A stretch of DNA of 28,010 bases, from the IMG/VR virus record IMGVR_UViG_3300046809_000656, positions 1-28,010 of that record; one strand, 5' to 3'. Within the stretch, counting starts at the first letter, position 1. The number at the start of each line of letters is the position of its first letter. The position numbers and the translations under genes were made by a program. Under the pieces are notes generated by a model. That model did not search any database, was not told where the DNA came from, and was given only the letters and a program-made list of their open reading frames with translations. Source of the DNA: a virus. This document shows positions 1,627 through 20,603 of the stretch, piece by piece.

Positions 1627-2047
1627 GATTTGCTCGAATCGTGAACGGGACCAAGCGGTCCTCTGGGGCGCCAAACTCGGCCCCGAGCCAGCGGAGCCAG
1701 CGGATGGACTTCGTTGCAGAGACCTCGCAGTGACCAATGATCGCGGGGAACTCCGTGAGCATCTCCGCGATCACCACCTGGGAATAGCGAACGAAAACAA
1801 AAACGTGTTCCTGCATGGCCTCCGTGGTGCGCAGCCATAGATAGGCCTGGTCAGACAGCAGGGTCGGCGGAATCAGCCCCATGTAGCAAAGCACCGCGTC
1901 GTCGTCCTTACCGATCCAGGTCCAAATTGAATTCCGCATGAAGTGACCAATGGTCGCGCGTTCATTTGCAGGCAGCATCGCCAGTTGCGATGGATAAAGC
2001 AAGCCATATGCCTCGGGACCCGGAACGCGAAGTAGTCGTGCAGTCAT
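1619..2047 (-). CDS. GNAT-fold-like internal virion protein (T7 gp13-like)
   Basis: A 142-residue protein starting at ATG 2047, with an ATGA overlap with the tail tubular protein B stop. The C-terminal third reads FPAIIGHCEVSA then SIRWLRWLGAEFG, the pattern I associate with the T7 gp13-like/DUF2833 family, which has an acetyltransferase-like (GNAT) fold. In T7, gp13 is needed for correct assembly of internal virion proteins. Whether this protein has acetyltransferase activity cannot be told from sequence. Its position directly before the gp14-like gene fits. Another reading is a phage acetyltransferase that modifies a host target. Confidence 0.7.
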   Translation of the reverse strand: MTARLLRVPGPEAYGLLYPSQLAMLPANERATIGHFMRNSIWTWIGKDDDAVLCYMGLIPPTLLSDQAYLWLRTTEAMQEHVFVFVRYSQVVIAEMLTEFPAIIGHCEVSATKSIRWLRWLGAEFGAPEDRLVPFTIRANHG

Positions 2048-4884: not shown

Positions 4885-4887
4885 CGA

Positions 4888-6765: not shown

Positions 6766-9528
6766 TCACTTGTTCAGGTAAGCGTTCGTTATCGCCGTCA
6801 CTTGCGCTTGTGTCAATGCCACGTCGAAGATCATGATAGCTCCGACCGTGAAATTTCCTTCATCTTGCTCATATATATGGGACCATGTTGCAAATGTCGG
6901 AGCAGGCGCCCCCAAACTGGCTTTTGTATTAGTAGAGCCGCTGCCTACAAAAGCAGCTAATCCTTGCTGCCCAGTCGCACCTAATGTTGTCGTACTTAAT
7001 GACCCATCGATATTGGAATGAAGACTTGTGTCTGGACTGCCGGTCGCCGTGCCATCAGCGTAGACCTTCAACGTGCCCGTGCTTGTAGGCGTCGTGGCGC
7101 CAGTCGTATCAAATGTTCCGCATATGACATGCGTGCCAGTAGCAGAAGACATTGCTTGCGTGACGGTCTTGATTTGCACATCGTCTCTTAGAGAAAATGA
7201 GGCATTACCAGGAGAGCCAGCTGTGTGCTGAAGCTGCATGGTCGGGTTGGGAAAATCGGTTCCGCCAAATCCTATGAGCGTCGCCAATGCAGTTCCAGGT
7301 TTCGAATATGCAGCGCATACACTGAACTGAAACATGCGCCGGAGGTTGTTAATGCGACCTCCTGCGGTACCACCAAAATACGAATATCCTGCGGTGGAAG
7401 GATTTACCACTCCTGGGGCGTCGCCATTAAACGAAGTCGCTCCATAAACTGCTGTGCTTGCACCGTTGCAAGGATTTCCACCAGTGCAAAAAGTCAGATC
7501 GCCTCCACGCGGAAGCCGCGTCGTCCCGAGATCAAACACAATGCTGGTATTGTTGCTGCCATCTTTGACAACGCCAAAAGACGGATCGGCCCAGGTGCGC
7601 AGATTATTGGTCAGCCCTTGAGCCACCATCAGGCTCTGCACGCTGTCGAGCCAAGTGCGGTCGATGTTTGTCGCTCCAGCCGCCAGCGCCCGCGTCTCGT
7701 GGGCGTTCACGATGGCGGCCGAAGACGACACATAAGTGCCGACGACCCGAGATTGTTCCTCAGTGCCGCCATTGAGAGTGACCACCTTATAGTAAAGCAA
7801 GCCCGTGCTGCCCGGAGAGTAGGAATACGTAGTCCCAGCTACGCTTGAAGTTACAAGAGTTGTCTGACTGCCAGCCGTCGTTCCTGAATAGATTCGATAT
7901 GAGCGCCCCGCGTAGCAGTCGTCCCACGTAAGCGTCACCACACCAGCCGCAGCGCTAACCGCCACACCAGTCGGAGCAGCATTGATCGCAGCCGAAGCAT
8001 CAAACACATAGCAATAATGGCTCATGAATTGCTGATAAAGACCGTAATTGGCCCCGACCGTTATCCCAGGAACGAATTGAATTGATGTGTTTGATGCGCA
8101 ACCGCCCACTATACACGCAAAAAACCCGGTAATGGGATAAAAATGAGCAATACCATCTTCATTGTATTGACCTTGCCCTTGAAGAAATTGCGGACCCGGG
8201 AAACAAGAACTCCCGCCACTTGGACAATACAAGTCGGAGATGTTGATAACGGCAGGAGAAGTCAGCACGTTGTAGCTCCCATCTACCGGAGCCAAAACGA
8301 CGCGCTGTCCATCCAGGTTTGAATTGCTTAGGACATTGTAAGCGGCAGAATAAGTTAAATACGCCTGCCCTCCAACGGTGGTTATCCATCCCTCTGGAAG
8401 TGATGTGCCAAGGCCAAACAAAGTGCTCCCGTTCGCACAATTTATGTCGCCAGGAGGCGAATTGGCAGGAAGGCATGTATTAGCCAGGGCGCCTCCCCAT
8501 AAGAAATTTTTACCGTCTGAGCTTGTCCAGGTTCCGGCAGCTCCGATAACATGCACGTTATCGTTGGCTGTTCGGCCTATCGACTGCCATGTATTGACGC
8601 CGCTTCGATAGATTTGCATGCCAGTGGCTTGATCCGTGAACCCGCTATACAGCTTATGAGTAGTTCCATATACAGTGAAATTGACCAAATCGGGAGAGGT
8701 GGCGACTCCTGTAGCAAATTCAAACTGGCTTCCGAAGGTTTGCGCATAGAAATAGAAAGGATTTGTCATATCGTCGGGATTACAGACCAAATACGGAAAG
8801 AACATCATATAGACATTCGATTGAGTCGTTGTCATTGCAGTCGGCGTTCCGACATCGCCGCTGCTTGCGGACAAGGCGTAGGTTCCCGTCTGACCCCTCC
8901 CGGTGTTGGGTGCATTGCTGCCGGATAACGTTCCCGTACCACCTGAATATGTCAGAGGTTGGCCGAGTGATAATCCACCAGAAGACATTGAAGAAACATT
9001 CAAGAGCGAAGATGCGATTGTTCCTGTGAAAGTCGCCCCGGGCGCATTCGCCACAAGGTTTTGTTGAGGCCACCGAATTACAGGAGTCAGAATTGATGGA
9101 GGAATGCCGGGATCATTGCTGAACCCGATCATGAGGTCTTGTCCATCCGTCCAGTCGCGTCCATTGATGCCGGAGCCATGATCAGGAGTTACCGGCCATG
9201 CGTATCTCCCCTTGGACGCCGCGATAGCTGCGCCCGCAGCGCCACATGCCGATGATGTCAAATCAAGTGGGCGCATTCCATAGATGCCGTTTATGTGGTA
9301 ATAGTCTGCCGTACTCACGGCAGGACAACCAGAACCCGGCTTGTAATAGTCGGCTGGGGTTAGAGCCGCAGGAGAGCAACTGAAGTAGTTCTGTGCTCGC
9401 AGATATGGGCCGCCGCCATAGCCGGAACTTGGATTGGGACCGGCCACTTGAAACATTGCAAATTGAGCGAACGCAAACGATGTCGCAAGGACGAAAAAAA
9501 TTGCTGCGCTGATCAGATATTTCTTCAC
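6766..9528 (-). CDS. Large exported-type protein: propeller-like, FnIII-like and LamG-like domains
   Basis: A 920-residue protein. Residues 1-21 form a Sec signal peptide (KK, hydrophobic core, cleavage AFA/Q22), followed by QFAMFQ. Residues ~35-510 look like a glycosidase-type beta-propeller (VYMMFFPYLV; FATGVATSPDLVNFTVYG; TWTSSDGKNFLWGG). Catalytic residues cannot be fixed by eye. A Gly/Ser/Thr-rich segment at ~165-225 (LSLGQPLTYSGG, GQTGTYALS) looks inserted. Residues ~515-600 are FnIII-like (PTGVAVSAAAGVVTLTWDDC). Residues ~690-920 are LamG-like, ending GAIMIFDVALTQAQVTAI. There are 16 mature Cys, several in close pairs. The start overlaps the upstream stop as ATGA. Likely role: carbohydrate or receptor binding or degradation. 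Base composition is visibly more A+T-rich than the head genes. Confidence 0.7.
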   Translation of the reverse strand: MKKYLISAAIFFVLATSFAFAQFAMFQVAGPNPSSGYGGGPYLRAQNYFSCSPAALTPADYYKPGSGCPAVSTADYYHINGIYGMRPLDLTSSACGAAGAAIAASKGRYAWPVTPDHGSGINGRDWTDGQDLMIGFSNDPGIPPSILTPVIRWPQQNLVANAPGATFTGTIASSLLNVSSMSSGGLSLGQPLTYSGGTGTLSGSNAPNTGRGQTGTYALSASSGDVGTPTAMTTTQSNVYMMFFPYLVCNPDDMTNPFYFYAQTFGSQFEFATGVATSPDLVNFTVYGTTHKLYSGFTDQATGMQIYRSGVNTWQSIGRTANDNVHVIGAAGTWTSSDGKNFLWGGALANTCLPANSPPGDINCANGSTLFGLGTSLPEGWITTVGGQAYLTYSAAYNVLSNSNLDGQRVVLAPVDGSYNVLTSPAVINISDLYCPSGGSSCFPGPQFLQGQGQYNEDGIAHFYPITGFFACIVGGCASNTSIQFVPGITVGANYGLYQQFMSHYCYVFDASAAINAAPTGVAVSAAAGVVTLTWDDCYAGRSYRIYSGTTAGSQTTLVTSSVAGTTYSYSPGSTGLLYYKVVTLNGGTEEQSRVVGTYVSSSAAIVNAHETRALAAGATNIDRTWLDSVQSLMVAQGLTNNLRTWADPSFGVVKDGSNNTSIVFDLGTTRLPRGGDLTFCTGGNPCNGASTAVYGATSFNGDAPGVVNPSTAGYSYFGGTAGGRINNLRRMFQFSVCAAYSKPGTALATLIGFGGTDFPNPTMQLQHTAGSPGNASFSLRDDVQIKTVTQAMSSATGTHVICGTFDTTGATTPTSTGTLKVYADGTATGSPDTSLHSNIDGSLSTTTLGATGQQGLAAFVGSGSTNTKASLGAPAPTFATWSHIYEQDEGNFTVGAIMIFDVALTQAQVTAITNAYLNK

Positions 9529-11549
9529 GGATTAACTACGCCTTGATTAGTTGTCAGCGTTACCGTCAACGTTCCAGCCCAATCGAGTGTAGTTGCAGAG
9601 ATGTTTGGTTCGCTCGTGCCGGCCATCCAACTTACCGCTGCGGGCAGAGTAAGTCCGCTATCCGCTCCACCGCTGCCGGTTACTCCACTGGGAGTGATTA
9701 CTCTGGAACCAGCAGTGCGCAAATCGACAATAGGCGTATAGGTCGTTACCGAGCCTCCACTCAAAACAATGCCGTAACCGAATTGATAGAGCGGCGCAAA
9801 CGTATATGGATTGGTTGCCCCTGCATAAGCGCCTGTGACTGTAAACGTCAGATTTGACACGGTGCCCCACATGTCAGGTCCAGGAGTGGACGACACTGGC
9901 GTAGTTCTGTCGTAAACGACTTGAGAATATGAATATAGAGGAACTGCCGCAGGAGCGCTATTGTACTGCGTTATCAGGGCATTTCCAATGCACCCAGAAC
10001 ATGTAAATTTGGGTGCAGGATGCGCCCGAATTGTGAGCGTACCAGACGCGGCCGGAAGATTTCCACCGCTGCCGCAAACAGTCGTTGAGCCGACGCAATT
10101 GGTCGCAACGTAGGTGTTGGTCACGTCTTGCGTTACATCGCTGACTTGATAGACAAAAGTGCTCTCCTTGCTTCCATAAGACCACGTGAAGTTTGTCCCA
10201 GGAACAGCCCACGTCACCGCACCATGTGTATTTGGGATAGTGATGGTTCCGCCGCTCATCGTCGAATTATATGGACCACCACTCTGTCCAGACAGTCCCC
10301 AATTTCCAGATGACACCGTGCCCGACTCGCTGACTCCTCCTGTAGTGATCTGCGTTAGAGTGCATGTGGTGCAGACTATCTCGTTGGATCGTCCAAATCC
10401 ATAAGCGCCAGGTTCAAGATTGCCAATCGTCGAAGTTGAAATTACTGCCTTCTTCGGCGTCCCGACCAAACCATTAGATATTGTCGAGTTTGTTACAGTA
10501 AAAAGATCGGTGGATGAACTCGTGAAATCCACTCGAAAGAATGTGCTTCCGGTAAAAACCACTTGCCCTATGATTTTGTCTACCTCAAGCTTGGCACAGC
10601 CAGACATGTCGGTGTTGATGTATTGAATAAACAAATTTATGCTCGGAACGCCGCACGATGTGCTGGCGAATGTCACATCGCGAAACGTAATATTACGCCC
10701 TGTGATGCTTGCTTGTCCTGCGATGTTTCGTGTGTCGATTGTCACTCCACGATATTCAATTTGACTGTTCCAGCTTGGATGCAATTGATAAAGAGTGGCC
10801 GGACCTCCCTGATCGGGTTGGGTGCTGCTCCCCGCATCGTAAAGAGGCCACGTCGTTTTATAAGAATTGGTCAACGCAGGACTGAAACTGATGCTGCCTC
10901 CCGCGCCTCCACTACAATTATGCGTGGCGTCTATCCCGGAAACCAAAACATAGTCGAAATAATACGGATTAGTCGGCGATCCGCCGCTTTGCAGATCGAA
11001 GCCGCTCATGAAAGCCCATGTTCCAACCGCAAAAATAGTGTTCTGGGAAGGCGTCAGGAGATCGACACATGTTGCTCCGGCGGAGGCTGCTGCGGTGCGG
11101 GCCGAATGTGTGTTGTCGAAATACTCTCCAAACCCGCCGAGATAAAACCAGCGATCACTGGCGCTATTGTTCGTGATTGTCGCTCCATACCCAACCACCA
11201 CTATATTTTTAGGCGGATCGGTCAATGACCATAACCCGTGATTAGTTAAACTTGTCCAACTACAAATAGAACCAGCCGGGATATCGAGTTCGATCAATCC
11301 GGTATGTGCGCCTTGCCAGGTCGCAATGAACGTCCCAAGCGAAAGCCAAGACGGAGATGTGTCAGCCATTCCATCGCACGTCGCCGCAGTGAACACCCCA
11401 TTGCCGCCACCTGCGCCAACACAATTTCCTGTCGTAAATGTGCAAATAATCGCAGGGGCGTTACTCGATGCTTGAAACATGGCAAACTGCGCGAAATTTT
11501 GTCCTGTGAACAACAGGACAAGTATAGCACTATACAATGACCTCAACAT
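9525..11549 (-). CDS. Exported-type beta-helix protein (tailspike/pectate-lyase-like)
   Basis: A 674-residue protein starting at ATG 11549, 7 nt inside the previous gene. A TTG six codons upstream is less likely. Residues 1-20 are a signal peptide ending NFA/Q21, again followed by QFAMFQ. Residues ~75-420 show repeated short beta-strands typical of right-handed parallel beta-helices (YRGVTIDTRNIAG, NITFRDVTFASTSC, GQVVFTGSTFFRVDF, VTNSTISNGLVG). The C-terminal 200 residues are Gly/Thr-rich beta. Fourteen Cys occur, including CTTC and CSGC. Beta-helix proteins in phages are commonly tailspikes or depolymerases that bind or cut polysaccharide. No catalytic site can be assigned. The signal peptide is unusual for a tailspike. 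Confidence 0.7.
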   Translation of the reverse strand: MLRSLYSAILVLLFTGQNFAQFAMFQASSNAPAIICTFTTGNCVGAGGGNGVFTAATCDGMADTSPSWLSLGTFIATWQGAHTGLIELDIPAGSICSWTSLTNHGLWSLTDPPKNIVVVGYGATITNNSASDRWFYLGGFGEYFDNTHSARTAAASAGATCVDLLTPSQNTIFAVGTWAFMSGFDLQSGGSPTNPYYFDYVLVSGIDATHNCSGGAGGSISFSPALTNSYKTTWPLYDAGSSTQPDQGGPATLYQLHPSWNSQIEYRGVTIDTRNIAGQASITGRNITFRDVTFASTSCGVPSINLFIQYINTDMSGCAKLEVDKIIGQVVFTGSTFFRVDFTSSSTDLFTVTNSTISNGLVGTPKKAVISTSTIGNLEPGAYGFGRSNEIVCTTCTLTQITTGGVSESGTVSSGNWGLSGQSGGPYNSTMSGGTITIPNTHGAVTWAVPGTNFTWSYGSKESTFVYQVSDVTQDVTNTYVATNCVGSTTVCGSGGNLPAASGTLTIRAHPAPKFTCSGCIGNALITQYNSAPAAVPLYSYSQVVYDRTTPVSSTPGPDMWGTVSNLTFTVTGAYAGATNPYTFAPLYQFGYGIVLSGGSVTTYTPIVDLRTAGSRVITPSGVTGSGGADSGLTLPAAVSWMAGTSEPNISATTLDWAGTLTVTLTTNQGVVNP

Positions 11550-12466
11550 GATACTGAAGTTCCCCAATACGAAAATTGATTATGGCACATTGTTCCTCGC
11601 ACATCAGGGCTGATAAAATTGGAGTTCCAAAAACCAAATTCCGCCATGTATCCATCGTAAAAGCCGCTACCGCCATTTGGCGTTCCCAGGAAAAACGCAT
11701 GACCTGATGCCGTGCCGCTTCCGCTGAATGTGCCCGTTGTAATCGTTCCGTTGTCGACATAAACCTGGGATGCGCCCGCCCCCGATCCTGTATCTATCGC
11801 CTGCACAGCATGCCACGCACTATCCGAAGCAGTAGCGTCAATGACATTTGACCCATCAAACACTCTGAAAACATTAGCTCCGTTGGATTGTATAGAAACA
11901 CCAAAATACCCAAACCAACTGGAATCAGCCGTACGATCATATACCAATGAGAATGAAAGAGGTGGAGAAAGAGTAGCTGTAGCCCCATTTTGTAAATACT
12001 GTGAATTAGCCGCCACAAAAAACGCTGTTGGCAGTCCGCCAAGTTGGGTTGTAACCAACGTCGGCATGTTGCCGGCGGTCGCCTGAGTCAAATCATTTCC
12101 ATTGCCAGTTTGATCGTATAGCGTTGTTATATTTGTACATGCACTGCCGCCACATGCGGTAGCGCCGGGTAAGGTGATTGTTCCATTGGTGTTGGCAGTG
12201 ACGGTGGTGCAACTTGCGCCGGACGAATTGCAAAGCCGCACTACATTGCCATGGGCCGCTGCGTAGGCCGCACTGTAGGCCCGCAAGCCGACCCAAAAAA
12301 CAGCGCCGGCTGATTTAATATCACCTGGGCCTGTGTAGCTAACAGGCGGCGCGGGAAATCCAGCTCTGCCGCCAAAGACCCCAGGCGGGAAGTTATTGTA
12401 TTGCGCATAGGCTACGCTGAAGCATAGCCATGCCGACAGCAGCAGATATAGGAATACCCGGTGCAT
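11543..12466 (-). CDS. Exported-type LamG/concanavalin-like lectin protein
   Basis: A 307-residue protein. Signal peptide 1-21 ends AYA/Q22. The mature part matches the concanavalin-like pattern seen in phage fibre lectins and in arabinofuranosidase B-type domains: VGLRAYSAAYAAAHGNVVRL, then TTLYDQTGNGNDLTQAT, then GYMAEFGFWN near the end. There are six mature Cys, with close pairs in CNSSGASC and ACGGSAC. Probable role: binding a surface glycan, in or outside the virion. The TGATG overlap with the upstream gene and 7-nt overlap with the downstream one place it in the operon. No catalytic acid pair can be identified by eye, so an enzymatic role is open. Confidence 0.75.
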   Translation of the reverse strand: MHRVFLYLLLSAWLCFSVAYAQYNNFPPGVFGGRAGFPAPPVSYTGPGDIKSAGAVFWVGLRAYSAAYAAAHGNVVRLCNSSGASCTTVTANTNGTITLPGATACGGSACTNITTLYDQTGNGNDLTQATAGNMPTLVTTQLGGLPTAFFVAANSQYLQNGATATLSPPLSFSLVYDRTADSSWFGYFGVSIQSNGANVFRVFDGSNVIDATASDSAWHAVQAIDTGSGAGASQVYVDNGTITTGTFSGSGTASGHAFFLGTPNGGSGFYDGYMAEFGFWNSNFISPDVRGTMCHNQFSYWGTSVSC

Positions 12467-13917
12467 CAGGAGAACTTTCCGAAGCAGACGACGGTTTCAG
12501 CCGCCCCTGTCGTGACCTTCCACGCACCAGCCGTGCTAACCGCTCCCACGGGAATAGATATAGGAGAAAGATTGGAAAGCGTGCCGGTGGCGAATTCAAT
12601 TACAAGCGTCCCGGCAGCATCGGTGTTGTCAAACACATGAACAGAACCGGCGGCCGTCGTGGTCGGGTAGATGACGCAGTGGGAGAGATAATCTCCCGCC
12701 GCTCCGGTCGATGTTTGAAGCACAGTCGCAGTCTGCGAAGCTGCAACGTGCTGATAGGTGCTGCCGCCGTTGACGACCCCGACGCCGCCTTTGACGAGAG
12801 CAGCGCCCGCGTTCGTGGCCTGATCGGTCGAGACCGTGACGCGCTGGGCACCCGTGCCCGTGGCGCCCGTGCCGGTCAGCGTGGTGACACCGTTCACTTG
12901 AGCGGTATTGACGGGGAGCGTCGATTGATTATTCGCAATAACAACCGGCGAACTGGCCGCCATCGCGGCTTGTCCGAGCGCGGTTGCGTTCGTCACAAAG
13001 GCGTTGACGCCGATGTAGTTGCCCGTCGTCGGCGCGACGCCATACGCGGTGGGAACACCAAGGCTGGTCTCGGCCCAGGTGTTCATGTCGGTAAAGAAGC
13101 CTCGTCCCGCGGTCATCGCCGCGGTGCAGGCTTGACCTGTCGTGCAGGCGGTGGCGCCGCCTGTAGTGAACTCACCGCCAGTTAGGGTGAAGTTGGTACT
13201 GCTAACCGTCCATGCCCCTTTATCAGCGATTGCGGTTCCGCCGCTGCCGGCACCGGCCTTGATGTTCACCCATAAGCCGTTCGTCTCGTCGCCGACTAGG
13301 CGTCCGATGTTCGAGCCATTAAGCACGCCAACCGCCAGCGCATTTGCCGGATAGGTGGCCCCCACCACAGCGTCGAGCACACCGCCGCCATTGCCTAGAT
13401 TGCGGACGGTGCCGATGACCTTAGTTGTCTCGGCGCCGAGCGTAGCATTGGCGGTGACCAGCATCCGCCCAGCAGCGTCGATCTGGAAAGCACCCTCTTG
13501 GCCGTTCGTGAATGTAGGCGGAGTGGACAGATAGCGCGTGCCGATGATAAACGAGGTCGTAGCCAGCGCAGAGCCCGCCACGATGTTCGTAGCCGACGAA
13601 ATCAACCGATCAGTTCCGGGCTTGATGGCTGCGAGGTTGCCGCCGGCTTCAAGGGCGAGTAACGAGGTGTTGAGGTTGGTGCCCGCATTTGCCGTCACGA
13701 GCAAGGCACCGCCCGCCCCGACCGCAGCGCATTGGTTAATCGTCGTCGCGTCGCAGATGCCAACCTCGCTGATGACGGTGCCGCCACCGAAAGCGATCAG
13801 ATTTGCGGTCTTGCCACTGCCCGCTGTGACACCGATCGTGTCATTGAGCGCGAGCGCTGGGTGAGCAGCAATCAGCCATACGGCGACACATGCTACGATC
13901 TTGCGCAGGGTATTCAT
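12466..13917 (-). CDS. Exported-type fibre-like repeat protein
   Basis: A 483-residue protein. N-terminal signal peptide 1-24 with core VACVAVWLIAAHPALA; cleavage is probably after ALA, just before LND, so this is one of the few without Gln at +1. The rest is Gly/Ala/Thr-rich beta structure with fibre-like phrases (GRLVGDETNGLWVNIKAG, GAQRVTVSTDQATNAGAALV). The last ~110 residues (STYQHVAASQTATVL, GAAGDYLSHCVIYP, GAWKVTTGAAETVVCFG) resemble a C-terminal domain I have seen on phage tail and fibre proteins. Six mature Cys. ATGA and TGATG couple it to both neighbours. Likely role: surface or receptor interaction, by analogy only. Confidence 0.7.
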   Translation of the reverse strand: MNTLRKIVACVAVWLIAAHPALALNDTIGVTAGSGKTANLIAFGGGTVISEVGICDATTINQCAAVGAGGALLVTANAGTNLNTSLLALEAGGNLAAIKPGTDRLISSATNIVAGSALATTSFIIGTRYLSTPPTFTNGQEGAFQIDAAGRMLVTANATLGAETTKVIGTVRNLGNGGGVLDAVVGATYPANALAVGVLNGSNIGRLVGDETNGLWVNIKAGAGSGGTAIADKGAWTVSSTNFTLTGGEFTTGGATACTTGQACTAAMTAGRGFFTDMNTWAETSLGVPTAYGVAPTTGNYIGVNAFVTNATALGQAAMAASSPVVIANNQSTLPVNTAQVNGVTTLTGTGATGTGAQRVTVSTDQATNAGAALVKGGVGVVNGGSTYQHVAASQTATVLQTSTGAAGDYLSHCVIYPTTTAAGSVHVFDNTDAAGTLVIEFATGTLSNLSPISIPVGAVSTAGAWKVTTGAAETVVCFGKFS

Positions 13918-14141
13918 TGCGGAGGTTCCTTCTTCGGCGCCATCTCGGTCGCCTTGGCTTCAAGAGCGCTGATGCGCAGCTTCAATGTTTCGACCTGTGC
14001 CAAGGCGGTGTCGCGCTCGTTGGAGATCTGAGCTCGACTGACATTGCACCAGTATACAGGGTCAGAAGGTTGTTGGGAATATGCGATAGTGGCCCAGATC
14101 GGAAGACCGACTGCAAGACCGACTGCAACAAGCGACTTCAT
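13914..14141 (-). CDS. Small exported or membrane protein with coiled coil
   Basis: A 75-residue protein starting at ATG 14141 (TAATG with the upstream gene). Residues 1-22 are a signal peptide or signal anchor (MKSLVAVGLAVGLPIWATIA, then YSQQ). Residues ~35-65 form a heptad-like helix (RDTALAQVETLKLRISALEA), and the tail is charged and Pro-rich. The layout (N-terminal hydrophobic segment, then a periplasmic coiled coil) resembles small inner-membrane spanins, but no partner outer-membrane lipoprotein with a lipobox is visible. It could equally be an oligomerisation partner for the exported fibre-like proteins around it. It has only one mature Cys. Confidence 0.6.
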   Translation of the reverse strand: MKSLVAVGLAVGLPIWATIAYSQQPSDPVYWCNVSRAQISNERDTALAQVETLKLRISALEAKATEMAPKKEPPQ

Positions 14142-14347
14142 TAGAACAGTCCTCCATAGGCGAGCGCCTGAGCGCAACCGGTTGAGAGATCGAGAGCGCC
14201 TAGGCAAACGCTTGGCGCAACAGGACCAACGCCACCACCTGCGCCAGTCTGGGCAAGCTGGGCAAGGGCAGTGGCGGCACAGAGGCCTAGAACTGCGCAT
14301 AGGCCAAGCTGCCAGGCATACCAACGACGGCAGAGGTGACTGCGCAT
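14141..14347 (-). CDS. Small exported-type protein
   Basis: A 68-residue protein. The start taken is ATG 14347, giving a signal peptide (core LGLCAVLGLCAATALA, then Q) and a mature chain of about 38 residues: Gly-rich, then PSVCLGALDLSTGCAQALAY with one Cys pair. It overlaps the preceding gene by 61 nt in another frame, more than usual here, so the start is uncertain; a codon nine residues upstream is also possible. The mature segment has the S/T-G-C-x-x-A phrase seen near the start of some phage lectin-type proteins. Function unknown. Confidence 0.55.
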   Translation of the reverse strand: MRSHLCRRWYAWQLGLCAVLGLCAATALAQLAQTGAGGGVGPVAPSVCLGALDLSTGCAQALAYGGLF

Positions 14348-14682
14348 AGCGATGCTCCAGATGGAACGACCCAAAGGACACCAGAGCCATTGCCCTTGGT
14401 GAAGCCGACTTGGGCGATGAGGTTGTAGTTGCCGGTGACGTTAGCGGTGCCGGTTCCGCAGGTGGCGCCAGTGCCGGCGATGAATTGGATATTACCAGTG
14501 CCGGCGGCGATGATGTCGACCGCGGTGACGTAGATGCTTTTGCCGGTGATGCCAATGATGAGACGAGTTGTGGTCGCGGTGGAGATGGTGATTGGGATTG
14601 AAGCCTGGGTCAGCGGGATCACTGGCTGGGCCCAGGCTAGCGTTGGGAAGAGAAGCCAGAGAGGGATGAGAAGTCTCTTCAT
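14287..14682 (-). CDS. Exported-type fibre-tip-like domain protein
   Basis: A 131-residue protein. Signal peptide 1-18 (MKRLLIPLWLLFPTLAWA, cleaved before Q19). The mature part is one compact beta domain with GITGKSIYVTAVDIIAAGTG, TGNYNLIAQVGFTKGNGSGV and a final GSLAYAQF. I recognise this pattern as a domain recurring at the C-terminus of phage structural proteins. Two mature Cys could form one disulfide. The start codon at 14682 is preceded by AGGA about 10 nt upstream. Here the domain stands alone behind a signal peptide. Confidence 0.7.
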   Translation of the reverse strand: MKRLLIPLWLLFPTLAWAQPVIPLTQASIPITISTATTTRLIIGITGKSIYVTAVDIIAAGTGNIQFIAGTGATCGTGTANVTGNYNLIAQVGFTKGNGSGVLWVVPSGASLCAVTSAVVGMPGSLAYAQF

Positions 14683-14692
14683 GATGGCGGTC

Positions 14693-15097
14693 CTAGGGTT
14701 TGTGACCTTTGAAGGTTAGTCGCGCAGTGTGGTCCCAGCGATTGTCGGGGTCCGATGCCATCTCGCGGCGAAGCTTCTCGATGGCGCCACCGTCGGTGTT
14801 GTGGGCCTTGAGGACTTGGCGGTAGCGATCGTCGAGGCGTTCGATCTCGTTGAGGATGTGCTTTGGCGGAGTCTGGCCGTGCTCTTCGTACATGTATTTG
14901 ATGTCGTGGACATCGTGCATGTAGTTGGCGAAGCGGCGGAGGGACTCGGGGACTTCGACCTCGGCATCGCGCATGAAGCCGACCATCTCGGTGTTCTGGC
15001 GGCGGATGGTCACGAGCTCGCGGTGGATGCGGAAGAGGAGATCGCGCTCGGTGACGGAGTCGTCGAGTTTGAAGTCGGGCGCATTGGCATCGGTCAT
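14693..15097 (-). CDS. Cytoplasmic-type helical hypothetical protein
   Basis: A 134-residue protein. It has no signal peptide and no Cys, and is highly charged and helical (ERDLLFRIHRELVTIRRQNT; NEIERLDDRYRQVLKAHN), so coiled-coil formation is likely. It starts one base after the previous stop (TGAAATG) with GGAG about 10 nt upstream. It differs clearly in composition from the exported-type genes on both sides. I do not recognise the family. Position suggests a late structural or assembly function; nothing in the sequence defines it. Confidence 0.7.
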   Translation of the reverse strand: MTDANAPDFKLDDSVTERDLLFRIHRELVTIRRQNTEMVGFMRDAEVEVPESLRRFANYMHDVHDIKYMYEEHGQTPPKHILNEIERLDDRYRQVLKAHNTDGGAIEKLRREMASDPDNRWDHTARLTFKGHKP

Positions 15098-15098
15098 T

Positions 15099-15593
15099 TC
15101 AATACTCCAAAATTGGTTGCAGCAACGAAATCACCGAAGGAGGAATTGAGTTTTGCCCAGCGTTGTTACCCACTGCTAGTTCTGTCCATCTTATCGGATC
15201 GAGATGCACCTCGGCTGTAGTGGATAATATTTTCTTGTCTTCTTCTATGAACTCAACCATGTGTGACTCCGAGACCTTTCCTGTAGAAGGATCGGCCATA
15301 CTTCGTAGGAGCCGATTATGTGCATCTTGATAATACCGCGATACTTCTCTGGCTTTGGATAGGTTCTTTGCTATGATCAATACTAGACCACCACCAAATT
15401 TATACGGACGACAGATTTCTTTTTCGTTCACGCCGTCTTTGATTGTGTCCTTTATGCAATCAAGGGAGGATAGACCTTGCGCAACGGCCATGACTTGTTC
15501 AACGTTTAGATCAGGCAAATTGGACTTTAACTGCGCGGAGGCGCTGGTTGTTAAGAGCAACGATAGTATGAAAAGCGTAGTTCTCACAGGCAT
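15099..15593 (-). CDS. Exported-type helical hypothetical protein
   Basis: A 164-residue protein. Signal peptide 1-20 (hydrophobic core LFILSLLLTT, cleavage SASA/Q). Unlike the neighbouring exported beta proteins, the mature chain looks largely helical (VEQVMAVAQGLSSLDCIKDT; KNLSKAREVSRYYQDAHNRL). Two Cys (DCIKD, EICRP) lie about 16 residues apart and could pair. The 10-nt overlap with the preceding gene shows coupling. No catalytic motif is seen. A periplasmic protein acting on the host envelope, for example in superinfection exclusion, is one possibility, but no evidence singles it out. The DNA is more A+T-rich than flanking head genes. Confidence 0.65.
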   Translation of the reverse strand: MPVRTTLFILSLLLTTSASAQLKSNLPDLNVEQVMAVAQGLSSLDCIKDTIKDGVNEKEICRPYKFGGGLVLIIAKNLSKAREVSRYYQDAHNRLLRSMADPSTGKVSESHMVEFIEEDKKILSTTAEVHLDPIRWTELAVGNNAGQNSIPPSVISLLQPILEY

Positions 15594-16792
15594 GCTCCGG
15601 CGCTGGTTTTCAAGAACAACGCTCCCGTGGCGGAAGCACAGACACTATACGTTCCTGTTCCAGCAGAAGTTGAGACGCTGGTAAGTGTAACGCCTGTGTT
15701 TAGGATTATGCTGCCTGTGCCTTTGGGAAAGATATCAAGATTGATATTTGTGTCTGATCCTTGTGCCAAGATTCCTGCGGGTGCTCCAGCTGCCCCCATT
15801 TGGAGAACAATCCCATTGGCTAGGACATTATCAATAACGGATAAGCCGACATTGGTCGTGAGGGGAATTGACGAGATAGTCAACCCATGCGCAACGCCGC
15901 TACTATCATAAGTGGTAAATTGAACAGGAACGCTGGCGACGTTTGCTCCGGAAACGCTCTTTGCCCCGAAGATTGCTCCGAGGCCGTTAGATACAAGCGC
16001 TCCGTTATCGACGATGAACCCGTTAGTCCACTTGGCGGTAGAACTGGGGACGATAGAAACGTGAATAGCACTAGCACTGGCTGGGGTCCCGGGGCCTTGT
16101 ATAATCAATGGTATGCCCTCGAAAGTCGAAGCGCCATTGGCGGTGAAGTCTACCTCGTATCCAACACACACGCGATTGTTCAGAGTCGCTAGTCCGTTTG
16201 GTGTACTATCGTTGCATGAGGTATTTATGCCCCATGTTCTCGCTCCATCGACCCCATTGACGCCAACCACAAAGAAGCCTACTACATTCTTCTCATCTGG
16301 GGTTGCGCCCGTTGCGTTGTTATTGAATGTATACGCACCAAAAGCTGCACTATTTTGCACTGCGGCCCCTGGCTGCATGTCGAGTACGCTACGAGTCACG
16401 TCGTAGTAGGCCCAACCTGGGGGAACAATCGGCCCGTAGATATTGAACGCAGTCTTTGCGCTGTTTTGGAAAGTGAAGCCTGCGCCATCGGCTGTTGGGG
16501 TGTTGCTTAAGCCGATGAATAATGGTGTTAGAGTTACAAGTCCTGTGGATGTATTGATGGTAACAGCGCCGTTGGCTGTGAAGCCGCCAAGAGCTCCGGA
16601 GTTGTTGTATTGGATTTGGCCGTTGGTGCCGCCGGCTGCGCCAAGGAAGGCCGAGGGGTTGGTGGCGCGCGGGGTGTTGGCAGCGCCTGTGACATTGCCA
16701 CAAACGGTGTTGTTGGGGAAGACGCCATTGCATTGCGCGGAGGCGAGGGATGGAAGCAGTAGGAGTGCGAGAACAATCAGGAAACGTTTCAT
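15584..16792 (-). CDS. Exported-type tail-fibre-like protein
   Basis: A 402-residue protein. The start ATG at 16792 (ATGA with the upstream gene) places a clear signal peptide at residues 1-19 (MKRFLIVLALLLLPSLASA) before QCNGVF. Directly after come phrases typical of phage fibre N-terminal regions: NTVCGNVTGAANTPRATNPS, GGTNGQIQYNNSGALGGF. The middle is beta-rich (WGINTSCND, VCVGYEVDF). The C-terminus (DTNINLDIFPKGTGSIILNT, then AGTGTYSVCASATGALFLKT) is also fibre-like. Six mature Cys. Its likely role is surface binding, but a signal peptide on a fibre is unexpected since virions assemble in the cytoplasm. Confidence 0.75.
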   Translation of the reverse strand: MKRFLIVLALLLLPSLASAQCNGVFPNNTVCGNVTGAANTPRATNPSAFLGAAGGTNGQIQYNNSGALGGFTANGAVTINTSTGLVTLTPLFIGLSNTPTADGAGFTFQNSAKTAFNIYGPIVPPGWAYYDVTRSVLDMQPGAAVQNSAAFGAYTFNNNATGATPDEKNVVGFFVVGVNGVDGARTWGINTSCNDSTPNGLATLNNRVCVGYEVDFTANGASTFEGIPLIIQGPGTPASASAIHVSIVPSSTAKWTNGFIVDNGALVSNGLGAIFGAKSVSGANVASVPVQFTTYDSSGVAHGLTISSIPLTTNVGLSVIDNVLANGIVLQMGAAGAPAGILAQGSDTNINLDIFPKGTGSIILNTGVTLTSVSTSAGTGTYSVCASATGALFLKTSAGACL

Positions 16793-17220
16793 TGGCCTAA
16801 GGTCCATCCGCCGGTGTCGAGGAGGGGTTCGAGAAGTAAGGTGCCGTAGGGAGTGGCGAGTTGGACTTGGGCGAGGCCGGAGATCAACTCGCCACCGAAG
16901 GGATTCACGTTGACGGTCAGGGCGCCAGAGGCGGTGCCGCGGATGTCGACGATGATCACGGGGTTGTAGACCCATTGGCCTGGGATGGCCTGAGGGCCCT
17001 GGGTCGAGGCTTTGGAGGAGGGTAGGTTGATGGCGAGGACGCCAGCGGCGACGTTGAGCTTGACTAGGTTGGTCCAGCGCTGGAGGGTTAGAGTGCCAGC
17101 GCTGGTTTGGTTGATGATGGCTAGTACAGGTACGCTAAGCATACCAACGGAGGGCCCCATCCAGACCCGCGCGAATTGGCGAAAGGTGCCGCCTTGGTCT
17201 AGGTCTAGTTGGGAGGGCAC
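16789..17220 (-). CDS. Fibre-tip-like domain protein without signal peptide
   Basis: A 143-residue protein starting at GTG 17220, three bases after the previous stop, with AAGAAGGG in that gene's end as likely ribosome-binding site. It is a beta-rich domain: LTLQRWTNLVKLNVAAGVLA, QAIPGQWVYNPVIIVDIRG, QVQLATPYGTLLLEPLLDTG. The pattern resembles a domain found in phage structural and fibre proteins. There is no signal peptide and no Cys, which contrasts with the exported-type neighbours and makes it a useful internal control for the cysteine argument. Confidence 0.7.
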   Translation of the reverse strand: MPSQLDLDQGGTFRQFARVWMGPSVGMLSVPVLAIINQTSAGTLTLQRWTNLVKLNVAAGVLAINLPSSKASTQGPQAIPGQWVYNPVIIVDIRGTASGALTVNVNPFGGELISGLAQVQLATPYGTLLLEPLLDTGGWTLGQ

Positions 17221-17223
17221 GGG

Positions 17224-17373
17224 TTATTTGCCCTTCTTCGGCTTGATGCGGCCAGTGTCGGCACGATTGAATTCCTTGGCCACTTTCGTGGGGATGCCCA
17301 CTTTGCGGGCGAATTGAGGATTGTGTGCAGCAGCAGCCATGGTGCGGGCTTGCTTTGCGGATTTGCTGGGCAT
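17224..17373 (-). CDS. Small basic conserved phage protein
   Basis: A 49-residue protein. It starts at ATG 17373 overlapping the upstream TAA (TAATG). It is Lys/Arg/Ala-rich: MPSKSAKQARTMAAAAHNPQ, then KVGIPTKVAKEFNRADTG, ending in KPKKGK. I recognise the SK.AQAR.MAAAAHNP and GIP..VAKEF pattern as a common short protein of many phages, with no assigned function. The charge and size would fit nucleic-acid binding, but this is only inference. Confidence 0.8.
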   Translation of the reverse strand: MPSKSAKQARTMAAAAHNPQFARKVGIPTKVAKEFNRADTGRIKPKKGK

Positions 17374-17897
17374 TAGACCCTCCGCTCAGGGGACTTGGTG
17401 GTGAGGGCAGTGACTTGGGCTTTGAGTTCGTCGTATTGGGCCTGCGTGATGGCAGGGGTGGGCACTGGTGCTGGGGTAACGCGTTCGAAGGCTGCCATCA
17501 TTCGTTGCATGAACTCGGATTCTGCGGAGGTCATACCGCCATTGGAGGGGAGGCTTTCGATGGGGTGGTCCCACCGGGAGCGCATGGAGTCGGTGATGGC
17601 AAGGGCGGCGGGGTTGAGGGGTTCCATCTCGGGTGTGGGAGAGCCCTCGAAGATGATGTCTTGGGATAGGTTGGAGGCCCCGTCGACTGCGTGGGCGACG
17701 ATGATTTCGCCTGGGTAGTTGCAGTCGGCGAGGTCGGCAGGGTTGAGGAGGATGGGGACTGGGTAGAGCTTGCGGACCGTGCGCCCCGTTTCACGCGAGG
17801 TTTCTTTGTGTTCCCATTCGCAGCGGGTGCCATCGGGGAGTTCGAGGACCTTTAGGTAGTGGGAACTGTTCAGGCGCCAACGGGGGGCTTCGGTCAT
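17373..17897 (-). CDS. Hypothetical late protein, no signal peptide
   Basis: A 174-residue protein. ATG at 17897 is preceded by TAGGAAC at a good distance. The N-terminal half (~1-75) looks folded and beta-rich (YLKVLELPDGTRCEWEHKET; KLYPVPILLNPADL). Residues ~120-174 are helical with Pro-rich linkers (SEFMQRMMAAFERVTPAPVP; QAQYDELKAQVTALT). There is no signal peptide and only two Cys. It ends in a TAATG overlap with the small basic protein. I do not recognise a family; a minor structural or assembly protein is likely from its place after the cement protein region. Confidence 0.65.
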   Translation of the reverse strand: MTEAPRWRLNSSHYLKVLELPDGTRCEWEHKETSRETGRTVRKLYPVPILLNPADLADCNYPGEIIVAHAVDGASNLSQDIIFEGSPTPEMEPLNPAALAITDSMRSRWDHPIESLPSNGGMTSAESEFMQRMMAAFERVTPAPVPTPAITQAQYDELKAQVTALTTKSPERRV

Positions 17898-17908
17898 GGC
17901 TGGGGTTC

Positions 17909-18361
17909 CTAGCTTACGCTCGTGCAGAGGTAGGCGATCTGGGAAGAGGCGTTGGAGGTCTGGGTGATGGTCAGGGCAGTGGTGGAGGTTGCCCAGGACA
18001 TCGCGGCCAGGGGCCCGGTTTGCCAGGTGACGAGGCAGTTGGGTGCGGTTTGGAAGGCGGTGCCGAAGGTTACGACGCAGGAGGTGGAAGCGGTAGTGCC
18101 TCCGGTGATGACACCGGAGAAGTCGGTGCCGACGAGGGTGGGCGAGCCGCCAGTGACGCAGGCGGAGAGGACTGGAGCGGGGCCGATCCGCTTGGTGGAG
18201 AGTAGGTGGCCCGGGAGGTAGACACCGCCTTGGGTGGTGTCGTAGCCGATTGTGCCCGTGGGGTCTTGGGAGACCTGCATGGAGCGGTTAGCGGACTGGG
18301 CCCAGACGAAGGCAGAGCCGAGAGCCAGGGTGAGGAGGGTGGGGAGGAGGTATTTGCGCAT
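17909..18361 (-). CDS. Exported-type protein with phage fibre C-terminal-like domain
   Basis: A 150-residue protein with start ATG 18361, two bases after the previous stop (TAATCATG). An in-frame ATG six codons upstream would weaken the signal peptide. Signal peptide 1-22 (core LPTLLTLALGSAFVWA) is followed by Q. The mature part carries PVLSACVTGGSPTLVGTDFS, STSCVVTFGTAFQTAPNCLV and a final IAYLCTSVS. I recognise this four-Cys pattern (LSAC...TSC.VTF...APNC.VTW...Y.C) as a domain often at the C-terminus of phage fibre proteins. Here it is separate and exported-type. Confidence 0.7.
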   Translation of the reverse strand: MRKYLLPTLLTLALGSAFVWAQSANRSMQVSQDPTGTIGYDTTQGGVYLPGHLLSTKRIGPAPVLSACVTGGSPTLVGTDFSGVITGGTTASTSCVVTFGTAFQTAPNCLVTWQTGPLAAMSWATSTTALTITQTSNASSQIAYLCTSVS

Positions 18362-18363
18362 GA

Positions 18364-18999
18364 TTATTGCTCTGTCCATGTGATGTAGATGTCGAGGACA
18401 CCGGAGGTGACGGAGACGGCGTTGAGGTTGACGCAGTATTGCTGCGCTGCGCCGGCGGTGGACCGGGGTATGTCGAAGCCCCGGGAGAAGAGGCCGACGT
18501 ATTCACCGGCGTCCCATTCGAGTGGAGTGGGGCCGACCAAGGCGGAGGTGGTGTTGAGGGAGATCCAACCGGAGCGGAGGTATAGTGGGGCGGTGTCGAC
18601 GATGGTTGGATTGGCGGTGTAGGCGGTTAGGACAGCGACTGCCGCTGGGTCGGTGCTGAGATGGGGCGTGGCCACAGGGAGAGCAGTGGTGGTGGCGGCG
18701 GTACCGCCGGTGTCCAGGCTCGCGCGCCGCAGGAGGGTGAACGGCGCGGTGACGAGTGTGCCGGCGGTACCAGAGATGCGGATTCGTTTGATCGAGATCG
18801 TGCGCGCGGTGGAACCGGAGATGCAGAAGATGTCGGTGGCCGAGGCGGCGGGGACCAGAGCGCGGGAGACAGCGGAGTAGGTGTATAGCTTGGCGACCGC
18901 GCTGACGGTGCCGACCTGGGGGACGGTGTTGACTTGGGAGAGTGCCGTGGAGCAAAGGGCCAGAAGGCCCAATGCCGAGGCAAGGATGCGGTTCAGCAT
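18364..18999 (-). CDS. Exported-type protein, first of the signal-peptide block
   Basis: A 211-residue protein. The start ATG at 18999 is preceded by TAAGGA, which also holds the stop of the upstream cement protein. Signal peptide 1-21 (ILASALGLLALCSTALS/Q). The mature part is a single beta-rich domain (AKLYTYSAVSRALVPAASAT; RTISIKRIRISGTAGT; PLEWDAGEYVGLFSRGFDIP), ending DIYITWTEQ. Two mature Cys. Comparable domains occur in phage structural regions, function unknown. Being directly after the cement gene it could be a decoration protein, but the signal peptide argues for export. Confidence 0.7.
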   Translation of the reverse strand: MLNRILASALGLLALCSTALSQVNTVPQVGTVSAVAKLYTYSAVSRALVPAASATDIFCISGSTARTISIKRIRISGTAGTLVTAPFTLLRRASLDTGGTAATTTALPVATPHLSTDPAAVAVLTAYTANPTIVDTAPLYLRSGWISLNTTSALVGPTPLEWDAGEYVGLFSRGFDIPRSTAGAAQQYCVNLNAVSVTSGVLDIYITWTEQ

Positions 19000-19010
19000 T
19001 GGGGGATTCC

Positions 19011-19547
19011 TTAGTTGGCGATGGTGATGCCGGCGGGGTAGCCGCCCATGATGGAGTTGTCGGTGGAGGAGTAGAACTGGTCGTCGCGATCGAGGACGAG
19101 GTAGGAAGAGACGTTGCCCGCGGTCATCGTGGCGCCACCGACGGTGTAGAGGAGGCGGATGAAGCGGGGGATGGCGATGCCGTCCGGGGGACGGGGCATG
19201 TCCATGTCGAAGAGGCGAGAGCCTGCGTTGAGCGTGGCGAGGGCGAAGGCTGGAGAGGTCCACCAGGTGACGAAGGTGGAGGGAACGCCGGAGCCGTTGT
19301 CGATGGCGCCCTGGAGGGCCACGGCGAGAGTACCAGCGCCGCCCGAGGTGAAGGTTGTGGAGACCTGGACCACGAATTTCATCGCGGGGTCGTCGCCGAT
19401 GCCGATATCGCGAGCACCACCGCCGTTGGCGGAGGAGGGGATGCCGGAGGAGATGCCGAGGTCGATGACGTTGGTGGAAGCTTGGGTGCCGGCGGCGATC
19501 GCCAGGGACACAGCGGAGTCGAAGGTGAGGAGTCCGTCGAGGATCAT
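19011..19547 (-). CDS. Bbp16-like capsid cement/decoration protein
   Basis: A 178-residue protein with start ATG 19547 and a strong TAAGGAG ribosome-binding site. N-terminus MILDGLLTFDSAVSLAIAAG, then NVIDLGIS and ARDIGIGDDPAMKFVVQVST, later FDMDMPRPPDGIAIPRFIRL. This matches the Bbp16 family of Bordetella phage BPP-1, where the protein sits on the capsid surface and stabilises the shell. It has no Cys and no signal peptide. Position directly after the major capsid gene supports the call. Confidence 0.85.
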   Translation of the reverse strand: MILDGLLTFDSAVSLAIAAGTQASTNVIDLGISSGIPSSANGGGARDIGIGDDPAMKFVVQVSTTFTSGGAGTLAVALQGAIDNGSGVPSTFVTWWTSPAFALATLNAGSRLFDMDMPRPPDGIAIPRFIRLLYTVGGATMTAGNVSSYLVLDRDDQFYSSTDNSIMGGYPAGITIAN

Positions 19548-19559
19548 GATGTGTGCTCC

Positions 19560-20603
19560 TTAGGTTACTTGGGCCTCGTTGGAGAGGATGGCGTCACAGG
19601 TGCGTACTGGGATGCCGCGGAAGGTGGTGATGACCTTGCCGTTGAACTCCTCGAGGCGGAGGAGCACGTTGGTTTTGTTCATGGCCTGGAGGTCCAAATA
19701 GGTGCGGATGATGCGGTTGCAGTAGAGCATCACTCGGCCCATGTTAGCGCGGACCTCGGGAGTGTCGGAGGTTTGGATGGAGGTGGCGTTCGCGGGGGCT
19801 GTGGGAAGGCGATAGAGTGCGCGGACGATCAGGTTGATTAGGTTGGCGGCCGAGACGCCCGTGAGTTGGGTCACGTCGATGTTGGCGATACGAGCGGTGT
19901 AGCGCCAGTCGCGGAGGCAAAGGCCGACCTCCCATTTGAAGTGGTCGCGATAGGCCTGGTAGGTGTTGCCAGAGGCGTCTTGGACAGGCCACTCACCCAT
20001 GTCGCGGTGCTGGAGGCCGGTGATTTTGCCCTTGGGGAAGAGGCCGTGGATGGTGTCGGAGCCCCAGGTTACGAGCCACATGGAGGTGTTGGTATTGGAG
20101 GTGCCGCCACCATCGAGGACGTTGGCTGCGGTAGCGGAACTGGCGGTGGTGACGGTGGAGTAGCGGGGGGCGAAGCCGGTGAAGCGTTCGGGGTTGATGT
20201 GTTGGTTGCCGTAGATGAAGGTAGAGGCGACCTGCTGGGACATGCCCTCCAAGAATGCTCTGACCTCACTCAGACGGAACTCAGCGGTGTTGCCATTGAG
20301 GTCGGCGATGTCTTTGTCGATGACGGCGTAGGTCTCGAGGTTGCCGACGGTGTCGACGATCTGCGCGGTGGTGGACTTGGCGTTCGGGACGCCGGTGTTG
20401 AGCAGGCGCCAGGTGGCCTGCGGGAGGCCGGTGCGGACCGTAGTTTTGTGGCCCGTGGGGAGGTTGCCCTCCATGACGAGGACATCGTCAAGGATTTCGT
20501 TGGTCTGGGAGAGGAGTTCGATGATGGTGGAGAGGCGATAGCCGTCGTCCATCCGTTTGGCCCAGTCCGCGTAGGTCAGGGCGAGGTTACCTATGGTTGC
20601 CAT
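19560..20603 (-). CDS. Major capsid protein (BPP-1 Bbp17-like)
   Basis: A 347-residue protein. The N-terminus (NLALTYADWAKRMD; IIELLSQTNEILDDVLVMEG; HKTTVRTGLP) and the middle (FIYGNQHINPERFTGFAPRY; TWGSDTIHGLFPKGKITGLQ) are typical of the short-tailed-phage major capsid group that includes Bbp17 (HK97 fold). ATG at 20603 follows GGAG about 9 nt upstream. A 111-nt gap separates it from the scaffold stop, one of the longest gaps in the operon, and may allow separate control of this highly expressed protein. It self-assembles over the scaffold to form the head. Confidence 0.92.
   Translation of the reverse strand: MATIGNLALTYADWAKRMDDGYRLSTIIELLSQTNEILDDVLVMEGNLPTGHKTTVRTGLPQATWRLLNTGVPNAKSTTAQIVDTVGNLETYAVIDKDIADLNGNTAEFRLSEVRAFLEGMSQQVASTFIYGNQHINPERFTGFAPRYSTVTTASSATAANVLDGGGTSNTNTSMWLVTWGSDTIHGLFPKGKITGLQHRDMGEWPVQDASGNTYQAYRDHFKWEVGLCLRDWRYTARIANIDVTQLTGVSAANLINLIVRALYRLPTAPANATSIQTSDTPEVRANMGRVMLYCNRIIRTYLDLQAMNKTNVLLRLEEFNGKVITTFRGIPVRTCDAILSNEAQVT

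Follow-up and report, generated by a model that had tools for sequence, protein, structure and literature searches.

The window analysed here, a viral contig of 28,010 bases (IMG/VR IMGVR_UViG_3300046809_000656), is by its sequence a BPP-1/phiV10-like podophage, and all its clear genes lie on the minus strand. As in other podoviruses of this type, the terminase is followed by the portal (phrog_332), the protease/scaffold (phrog_458), the capsid and a cement-like protein, and further on by tail tube proteins A and B and the internal virion proteins. While the prophage relatives compared have a small gene between cement and tail tube A and their fibres elsewhere, the window holds at this position a block rich in genes with Sec signal peptides (SPs). 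We focus on this block and in particular on a predicted tail fibre and the gene just before it, and propose that the block encodes a receptor-binding apparatus which is made by an export route. Genes are named by the higher of their two coordinates (Table 1) and a slash marks the predicted cut.

An earlier note, made from the letters of the window, had claimed that eleven of fifteen genes in this late operon begin with Sec signal peptides. N-termini were evaluated with a scorer written for this analysis, which combines terms for the n-, h- and c-regions and for positions −3, −1 and +1 taken from general signal-peptide statistics. Calibration on 20 classical Escherichia coli signal peptides gave a median of 13.5 and a lowest value of 3.9, and the 99.9th percentile of random sequence was 3.2. 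The eleven named genes scored between +2.4 and +16.9 and the remaining 19 genes of the window −5.4 or lower, which bears out the presence of the signals, although the figure of fifteen applies only when the 49-amino acid (aa) open reading frame (ORF) 17373-17224 is counted. The N-termini show the positive n-region, the hydrophobic core and the small residues at −3 and −1 expected for Sec and signal peptidase I, and Cys at +1 occurs in none of the eleven, so that the lipoprotein class is not indicated. Gln directly follows the cut in ten of the eleven, in line with the nine or ten announced before, the exception being 13917 (LALA/LN). The weakest signal belongs to 11549-9525, which has Asn at −3 and a score of 2.4. 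An artefact of wrongly called starts, or of N-termini that happen to be hydrophobic in a genome of high GC content, for which this borderline gene alone could speak, is already refuted: of the 468 possible opposite-strand starts not one reached 10, all coding-strand starts scoring 10 or higher belong to the named genes, random sequence and the 19 neighbours were negative, and the signals are conserved across families. Furthermore, the starts of the named genes are preceded by Shine-Dalgarno sites and/or ATGA overlaps, and a gene caller blind to signal peptides picked eight of the eleven exactly.

Conservation was counted over 80 related soil-phage loci; these and other related loci are given L numbers below. 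Genes scoring as SP numbered 260 among the 637 that lie downstream of the capsid gene and 21 among the 493 upstream of it, and in outgroup prophages only 3 among 235 downstream genes. The conservation in related phages that the earlier note had suggested looking for turned out to be nearly all-or-none: SPs were complete in the families of 14682 and 18999 (Table 1), present in 45 of 46 and 85 of 89 members of two further families, and absent from the families of tail tube A (0/49), the cement-like protein, 17220 and a further conserved late protein. Among 224 unique N-termini, Ala occupied position −3 in 76% and −1 in 92%, and Gln position +1 in 85%. The +1 Gln was found in 87% of the relatives' mature ends versus 16% of 50 alphaproteobacterial signal peptides (Fisher p 2.6e-22), so that it looks like a phage trait and a host habit as its source was ruled out, with the reservation that the host may not belong to the Alphaproteobacteria. 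Protection of the mature proteins by pyroglutamate formation at this Gln, another suggestion of the earlier note, is possible as conceivable chemistry. Dual-start genes that would yield exported and cytoplasmic forms were ruled out as well, since a strong alternative start behind the signal exists in just 1 of the 261 SP genes. From these signatures, export of the block proteins by Sec and cleavage by signal peptidase I appear nearly certain. In locus L013, the sixth gene past the capsid (MKLIKPTRRKFLTGAAATLF...) has a twin-arginine-like signal in place of a plain Sec signal.

The cysteine pattern provides independent evidence that the SP proteins leave the cytoplasm. Cys accounts for 1.7% of the residues in mature SP proteins versus 0.7-0.9% in other phage proteins, and before clustering 195 mature SP proteins had an even and 11 an odd number. 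After clustering at 40% identity the ratio of even to odd was 35 to 5 for SP proteins and 12 to 15 for non-SP proteins; the bacterial controls followed expectation, with 27 to 7 for host SP proteins and 234 to 370 for host non-SP proteins. C38 and C168 are invariant in 24 sequences of the 18999 family. The 14682 family (A4) has C57 and C95 invariant, and in its alignment the two members of a second pair (CNK...CGW) come and go together. In the fibres, the N-terminal pair lies within the first 12-17 mature residues (Q1-C2...C12 or QNxxC...NAC). Judged by this pairing, the mature SP domains very probably fold with disulfide bonds in the periplasm. A simple CxxC scan revealed no phage-encoded DsbA-like enzyme.

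Family and PHROG searches detected no tail-fibre domain above cut-off in the window proteins, whereas SP proteins of the relatives carry PF07484, the domain of phage tail collars (4.5e-13), and match the tail-fibre PHROGs phrog_863 (6.8e-22) and phrog_38233 (9.2e-26). Two types of fibre N-terminus occur, namely QCNG.F..N..CGN (A1), which includes the window protein 16792-15584 and has Q1, C2 and C12 invariant, and QN.TC.TRP.GDNSNACASTAFV, here called NACA. A signal peptide was present in 98 of 100 fibres from two scans; the other two appear to be truncated or to have a wrongly called start. Conservation of 16792-15584 is confined to the first ~100 residues and the C-terminus is variable, as in receptor-binding fibres. 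The complete genomes of 48-50 kb contain no other fibre candidate, their remaining late genes coding for internal virion and lysis proteins. A search for the fibre N-terminus A2 in 385 Alphaproteobacteria gave three marginal matches only.

The gene just before the fibre lacks a signal peptide and belongs to one of two families (7 and 8). QCNG fibres are accompanied by family 7 in all 32 assignable cases and NACA fibres by family 8 in all 61, without a single cross-pair among the 93. Mapped on the capsid tree, the fibre type appears to have switched about seven times, at least three of these switches being forced by well-supported branches, and the adaptor switches along each time. The structure model of the adaptor (AlphaFold2, AF2), which covers the window's 17220-16789 protein, is of moderate confidence (predicted local distance difference test, pLDDT, 79; TM about 0.56). 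Its Foldseek matches were a gp10-like baseplate protein of the Klebsiella phage KP1 (8.7e-5), the N-terminus of CBA120 TSP4 (3.6e-4), the Pa223 capsid spike (8.8e-4) and T4 gp10 (2.6e-3), and the protein is predicted to adopt the T4 gp10/CBA120 TSP4 fibre-docking fold. The adaptor may bind the fibre, with whose type it co-varies in 93 of 93 cases, and we regard it as probable that the main fibre 16792-15584 is part of the virion.

Acetobacteraceae prophages of the same phage family have a fibre gene between tail tube A and B. The fibre of Acetobacter musti L087 lacks a signal peptide and carries the N-terminal motif ...YPKWSQNYIPTVLEW (YPKWSQNYIPTVLEWQVWFSCK). In L303, a signal peptide stands before the same docking motif (MKKALLLVMAMCAFHAPAHA/QSTPNWRQNYVPSVKEWEDWWSRK; ...PAHA/QSTPNWRQNYVPSVKEW), and this arrangement is also found in Bombella pluederhausensis TMW 2.2543 (L106; MKKFLWLVAFLAAFPSTGVA/QVSPARWTQNYAPTLADWQAALLYK) and in L305, which is located in a 3-Mb chromosome contig. 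The docking motif begins just past the cut in fibres with a signal peptide and at the N-terminus in homologues without one. In prophage L084 of Saccharibacter floricola DSM 15669, the choice between a lipoprotein and a signal peptidase I cut is ambiguous (MVGC). L303-L306, L294-L302, L084 and L106 represent natural versions of one fibre slot with and without signal peptide, some of them in cultured species. A second podophage lineage (L196, L199, L202 and L214; capsid phrog_9953, distantly Mx8-like) encodes a family-8-like adaptor together with one SP fibre, and a related spring phage has a fibre without signal peptide.

With a probability of roughly 0.66, we interpret the block as coding for a receptor-binding apparatus whose production involves export: the fibres would be exported, cleaved and disulfide-bonded and would dock at lysis. 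As the sequence shows, fibre and accessory proteins are synthesised with Sec signal peptides that signal peptidase I removes behind A-x-A, in most cases exposing Gln, and the mature domains very probably fold in the periplasm, with a disulfide staple within the first 12-17 fibre residues. The adaptor 17220-16789, translated just before the fibre and without a signal peptide, would be expected on the particle in the cytoplasm. Once the holin opens the inner membrane, the periplasmic and cytoplasmic pools would mix and the stapled fibre N-terminus could plug into the docking protein, so that virions would be fitted with fibres during lysis or afterwards. Of the SP proteins, the smaller ones (18999, 18361, 14682 and others) may be accessory binding or decoration domains that follow the same route. 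Docking upon mixing of the compartments at lysis seems rather likely; we arrive at it by elimination, because capsids form in the cytoplasm. We also lean slightly towards a broader view, namely that a class of tailed phages splits assembly, with capsid and tail in the cytoplasm and exported, processed and possibly glycosylated fibres in the periplasm that dock only once lysis has mixed the pools, and that the cassette of adaptor and exported fibre has spread between unrelated podophage lineages. The exported proteins are rich in Thr and Ser. Nine relatives encode among their SP genes a multi-membrane protein of ~360 aa that resembles O-antigen ligases/polymerases (PF04932, with 8.5e-9 in L015 and a weaker match in L005) and is absent from the window (L005:12563-13654, L015:5279-6256, L007, L008, L016, L017, L035, L037 and L040). 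This protein could modify lipopolysaccharide (LPS) or glycosylate exported fibres.

The main alternative gives the exported proteins a role on the infected cell and no place in the virion. Remaining in the periplasm or arriving at the surface, they would bind or mask nascent LPS or receptors and so keep superinfection, or the re-adsorption of progeny to debris, from taking place. Phage-encoded exported envelope proteins have a precedent in lambda Lom (PMC12309495), the O-antigen-ligase-like protein of the nine relatives would be an envelope-directed enzyme, and each genome contains many different lectin-like domains. We nevertheless consider this explanation unlikely, as it leaves complete genomes without a recognisable receptor-binding protein and has to account for a fibre that is strictly paired with a non-exported gp10/TSP4-like docking protein, and for sister prophages with SP-less fibres that occupy the same slot and share the docking motif. 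Traits of the Lom/Llp type, an outer-membrane barrel or a lipoprotein, were not seen in the window, where the cut sites lack a lipobox, no such family was matched and the modelled 18999 protein is a jelly roll. A mixed use, with the main fibre in the virion and most other SP proteins released at lysis as free soluble lectins or depolymerases, removing slime or serving as decoys, would agree with the number of accessory SP genes, which differs widely among the relatives and includes many singletons, and with the low GC content at third codon positions (GC3) of 15593, 12466, 11549 and 9528, which fits recent separate acquisition. It appears quite improbable in view of the +1 Gln and the cysteine habit, which are common to all SP proteins and suggest one pathway, and no enzymatic domain above cut-off was found in the window. 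The hydrophobic N-termini might also be membrane-active or assembly segments retained in the virion, in keeping with the classical cytoplasmic assembly of virion fibres, but the conserved A-x-A/Q at the cut, the paired cysteines and the docking motifs that start right after the cut, or at the N-terminus of SP-less homologues, make this very improbable.

Several points weigh against a receptor-binding apparatus assembled in this way. A fibre made in the periplasm has to reach a particle in the cytoplasm, and the route proposed for this step is inferred only. Incorporation into the virion is deduced from the linkage of the genes, a fold prediction that is moderately confident and genomic exclusion, and adjacency together with joint transfer could partly explain the co-variation of adaptor and fibre. 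Moreover, the proteins of 15593, 14347 and 14141 are not fibre-like in appearance, and the window's own clade has no cultured member. Among the uses considered in the earlier note, the evidence favours joining of virions after lysis over coating or remodelling of the host or a block of superinfection, based on the co-variation with the docking protein, the lack of another fibre gene, the tail-fibre domains and the slots with and without signal peptide that share one docking motif; export itself is strongly supported.

Table 1 Features of the signal-peptide block and its borders in the window, with predicted cut sites and supporting matches or scores.
Coordinates	Strand	Feature	Evidence
19560..20603	−	Major capsid protein	phrog_212 4.7e-82; 47% to BPP-1 Bbp17, 52% to phiV10
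19011..19547	−	BPP-1-type cement-like protein, upstream block border	phrog_427 2.6e-20; family SP 0/78
18364..18999	−	SP protein 1, 211 aa, ...CSTALS/QVNTV	SP score 11.1; SP and +1 Gln in 28/28 family members
17909..18361	−	SP protein 2, 150 aa, MRKYLLPTLLTLALGSAFVWA/QSANRS, 4 Cys, clusters with fibre family	SP score 11.8; family 84/88 SP
17373..17897	−	Conserved late protein without SP, 174 aa	SP score −25.4; family 0/50 SP
17224..17373	−	Basic ORF without SP, 49 aa	Gene caller; family of 13, SP scores weak or nil
16789..17220	−	Putative fibre-docking protein (adaptor) without SP, 143 aa	Family 0/23 SP; pairs only with QCNG fibres; AF2 fold
15584..16792	−	Predicted Sec-exported tail fibre, 402 aa, ...SLASA/QCNGVFPNNTVCGN	SP score 16.9; ATGA overlap with adaptor
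15099..15593	−	SP protein, 164 aa, ...TTSASA/QLKS, 2 Cys	SP score 10.9
14693..15097	−	Late protein without SP, 134 aa	SP score −31.8; family 0/18 SP
14287..14682	−	SP protein, small domain, 131 aa, ...TLAWA/QPVIP	SP score 12.1; family 57/57 SP
14141..14347	−	SP peptide, 68 aa, ...TALA/QLAQTGAG	SP score 11.1
13914..14141	−	Short SP peptide, 75 aa, ...IAYS/QQPS, 1 Cys	SP score 5.1; family 3/3 SP
12466..13917	−	SP protein, 483 aa, ...HPALA/LNDT, 6 Cys, without +1 Gln	SP score 10.7
11543..12466	−	SP protein, 307 aa, ...SVAYA/QYNN, 6 Cys	SP score 12.2
9525..11549	−	SP protein, 674 aa, ...GQNFA/QFAMFQ, 14 Cys	SP score 2.4, weakest
6766..9528	−	SP protein, 920 aa, GTG start, ...SFAFA/QFAMFQ, 16 Cys	SP score 15.2
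2044..6027	−	Tail tube A (6027-4888) and B (4884-2044), downstream of block	phrog_394 5.8e-28, phrog_376 1.1e-152

The mature parts of the block proteins had been described as fibre- and lectin-like, which holds only in part. Lectin-like support for 12466 stays below cut-off, with weak LamG/concanavalin-like matches (PF13385 0.0012, PF09206 0.00024; phrog_10356 2.8e-5), and 14141 leaves a mature peptide of 53 residues, which is no fibre. The 18999 protein was modelled as a single jelly-roll domain of beta fold (AF2, pLDDT 83.8) that matched uncharacterised phage proteins in BFVD (1.7e-11) and nothing in the PDB below 1e-3; a PDB sequence search with two small families gave no match either. The mature start QLAQTGAG of 14347 recurs in a 302-aa protein of a relative (L032_5), and the peptide is possibly a truncated fibre remnant, as judged from this likeness. 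The 11549 and 9528 proteins have the mature start QFAMFQ in common. GC3 is 0.45-0.50 in 15593, 12466, 11549 and 9528 (0.45-0.53 including 16792-15584) versus 0.72-0.87 in the core, which suggests a foreign origin of these accessory genes. A basic ORF of ~50 aa without signal peptide, similar to 17373-17224 (MPSKSAKQARTMAAAAHNPQFARKVGIPTKVAKEF...), recurs in or near the block of about a dozen relatives. Outside the block, ORF 26973-26566 adjoins the terminase genes and, judged by eye, has a GIY-YIG-nuclease-like start (GVYALVRSGVVVYVGQSRRPLSRISAHK).

No close DNA match to the window was found among 50,697 phage records, and IMG/VR contains 572 capsid relatives. The best capsid matches in genome assemblies were contigs of metagenome-assembled genomes (MAGs) assigned to Telmatospirillum (85%, L083) and Terriglobia (79%, L082), for both of which misbinning is possible. 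The Terriglobia contig, 36 kb in length, also carries an SP block. Direct homologues of the 9528, 16792 and 18999 proteins and of the family 8 adaptor were not found in cultured phages.

In the textbook view, fibres of tailed phages assemble in the cytoplasm. Receptor-binding fibres, Sec export and exported phage lysins or membrane proteins are known already, and the export route for fibres seems to be unreported; we found no report of a Sec-exported tail fibre in the open-access papers searched, which is no proof of absence. The predicted adaptor fold and its position beside the presumed docked fibre resemble the docking modules of T4 gp10 and CBA120 TSP4, whose known docked fibres are cytoplasmic, whereas the fibre of the window is predicted to be Sec-exported and disulfide-stapled. 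The exported fibres of the relatives share domains with tail collar and fibre proteins (PF07484, phrog_863, phrog_38233), among them the fibre of the Sinorhizobium phage phiLM21, which in contrast has no signal peptide. The fOg44 endolysin and lambda Lom likewise use host Sec and signal peptides, but the former is a lysis enzyme and the latter a host outer-membrane protein, and neither is a virion fibre.

If the proposed route is true, fibres could make use of disulfide bonds and periplasmic modification, virions would mature at or after lysis, and particles in one lysate may share fibres. Many 'secreted hypothetical' proteins of soil phages would gain a function, and the combination of signal peptide, Gln, early Cys pair and gp10-like neighbour would provide a search rule for receptor-binding proteins missed by annotation. 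Prophages in cultured Bombella and Saccharibacter allow direct testing. The export route would concern a widespread group of soil viruses as well as their relatives integrated in acetic-acid bacteria.

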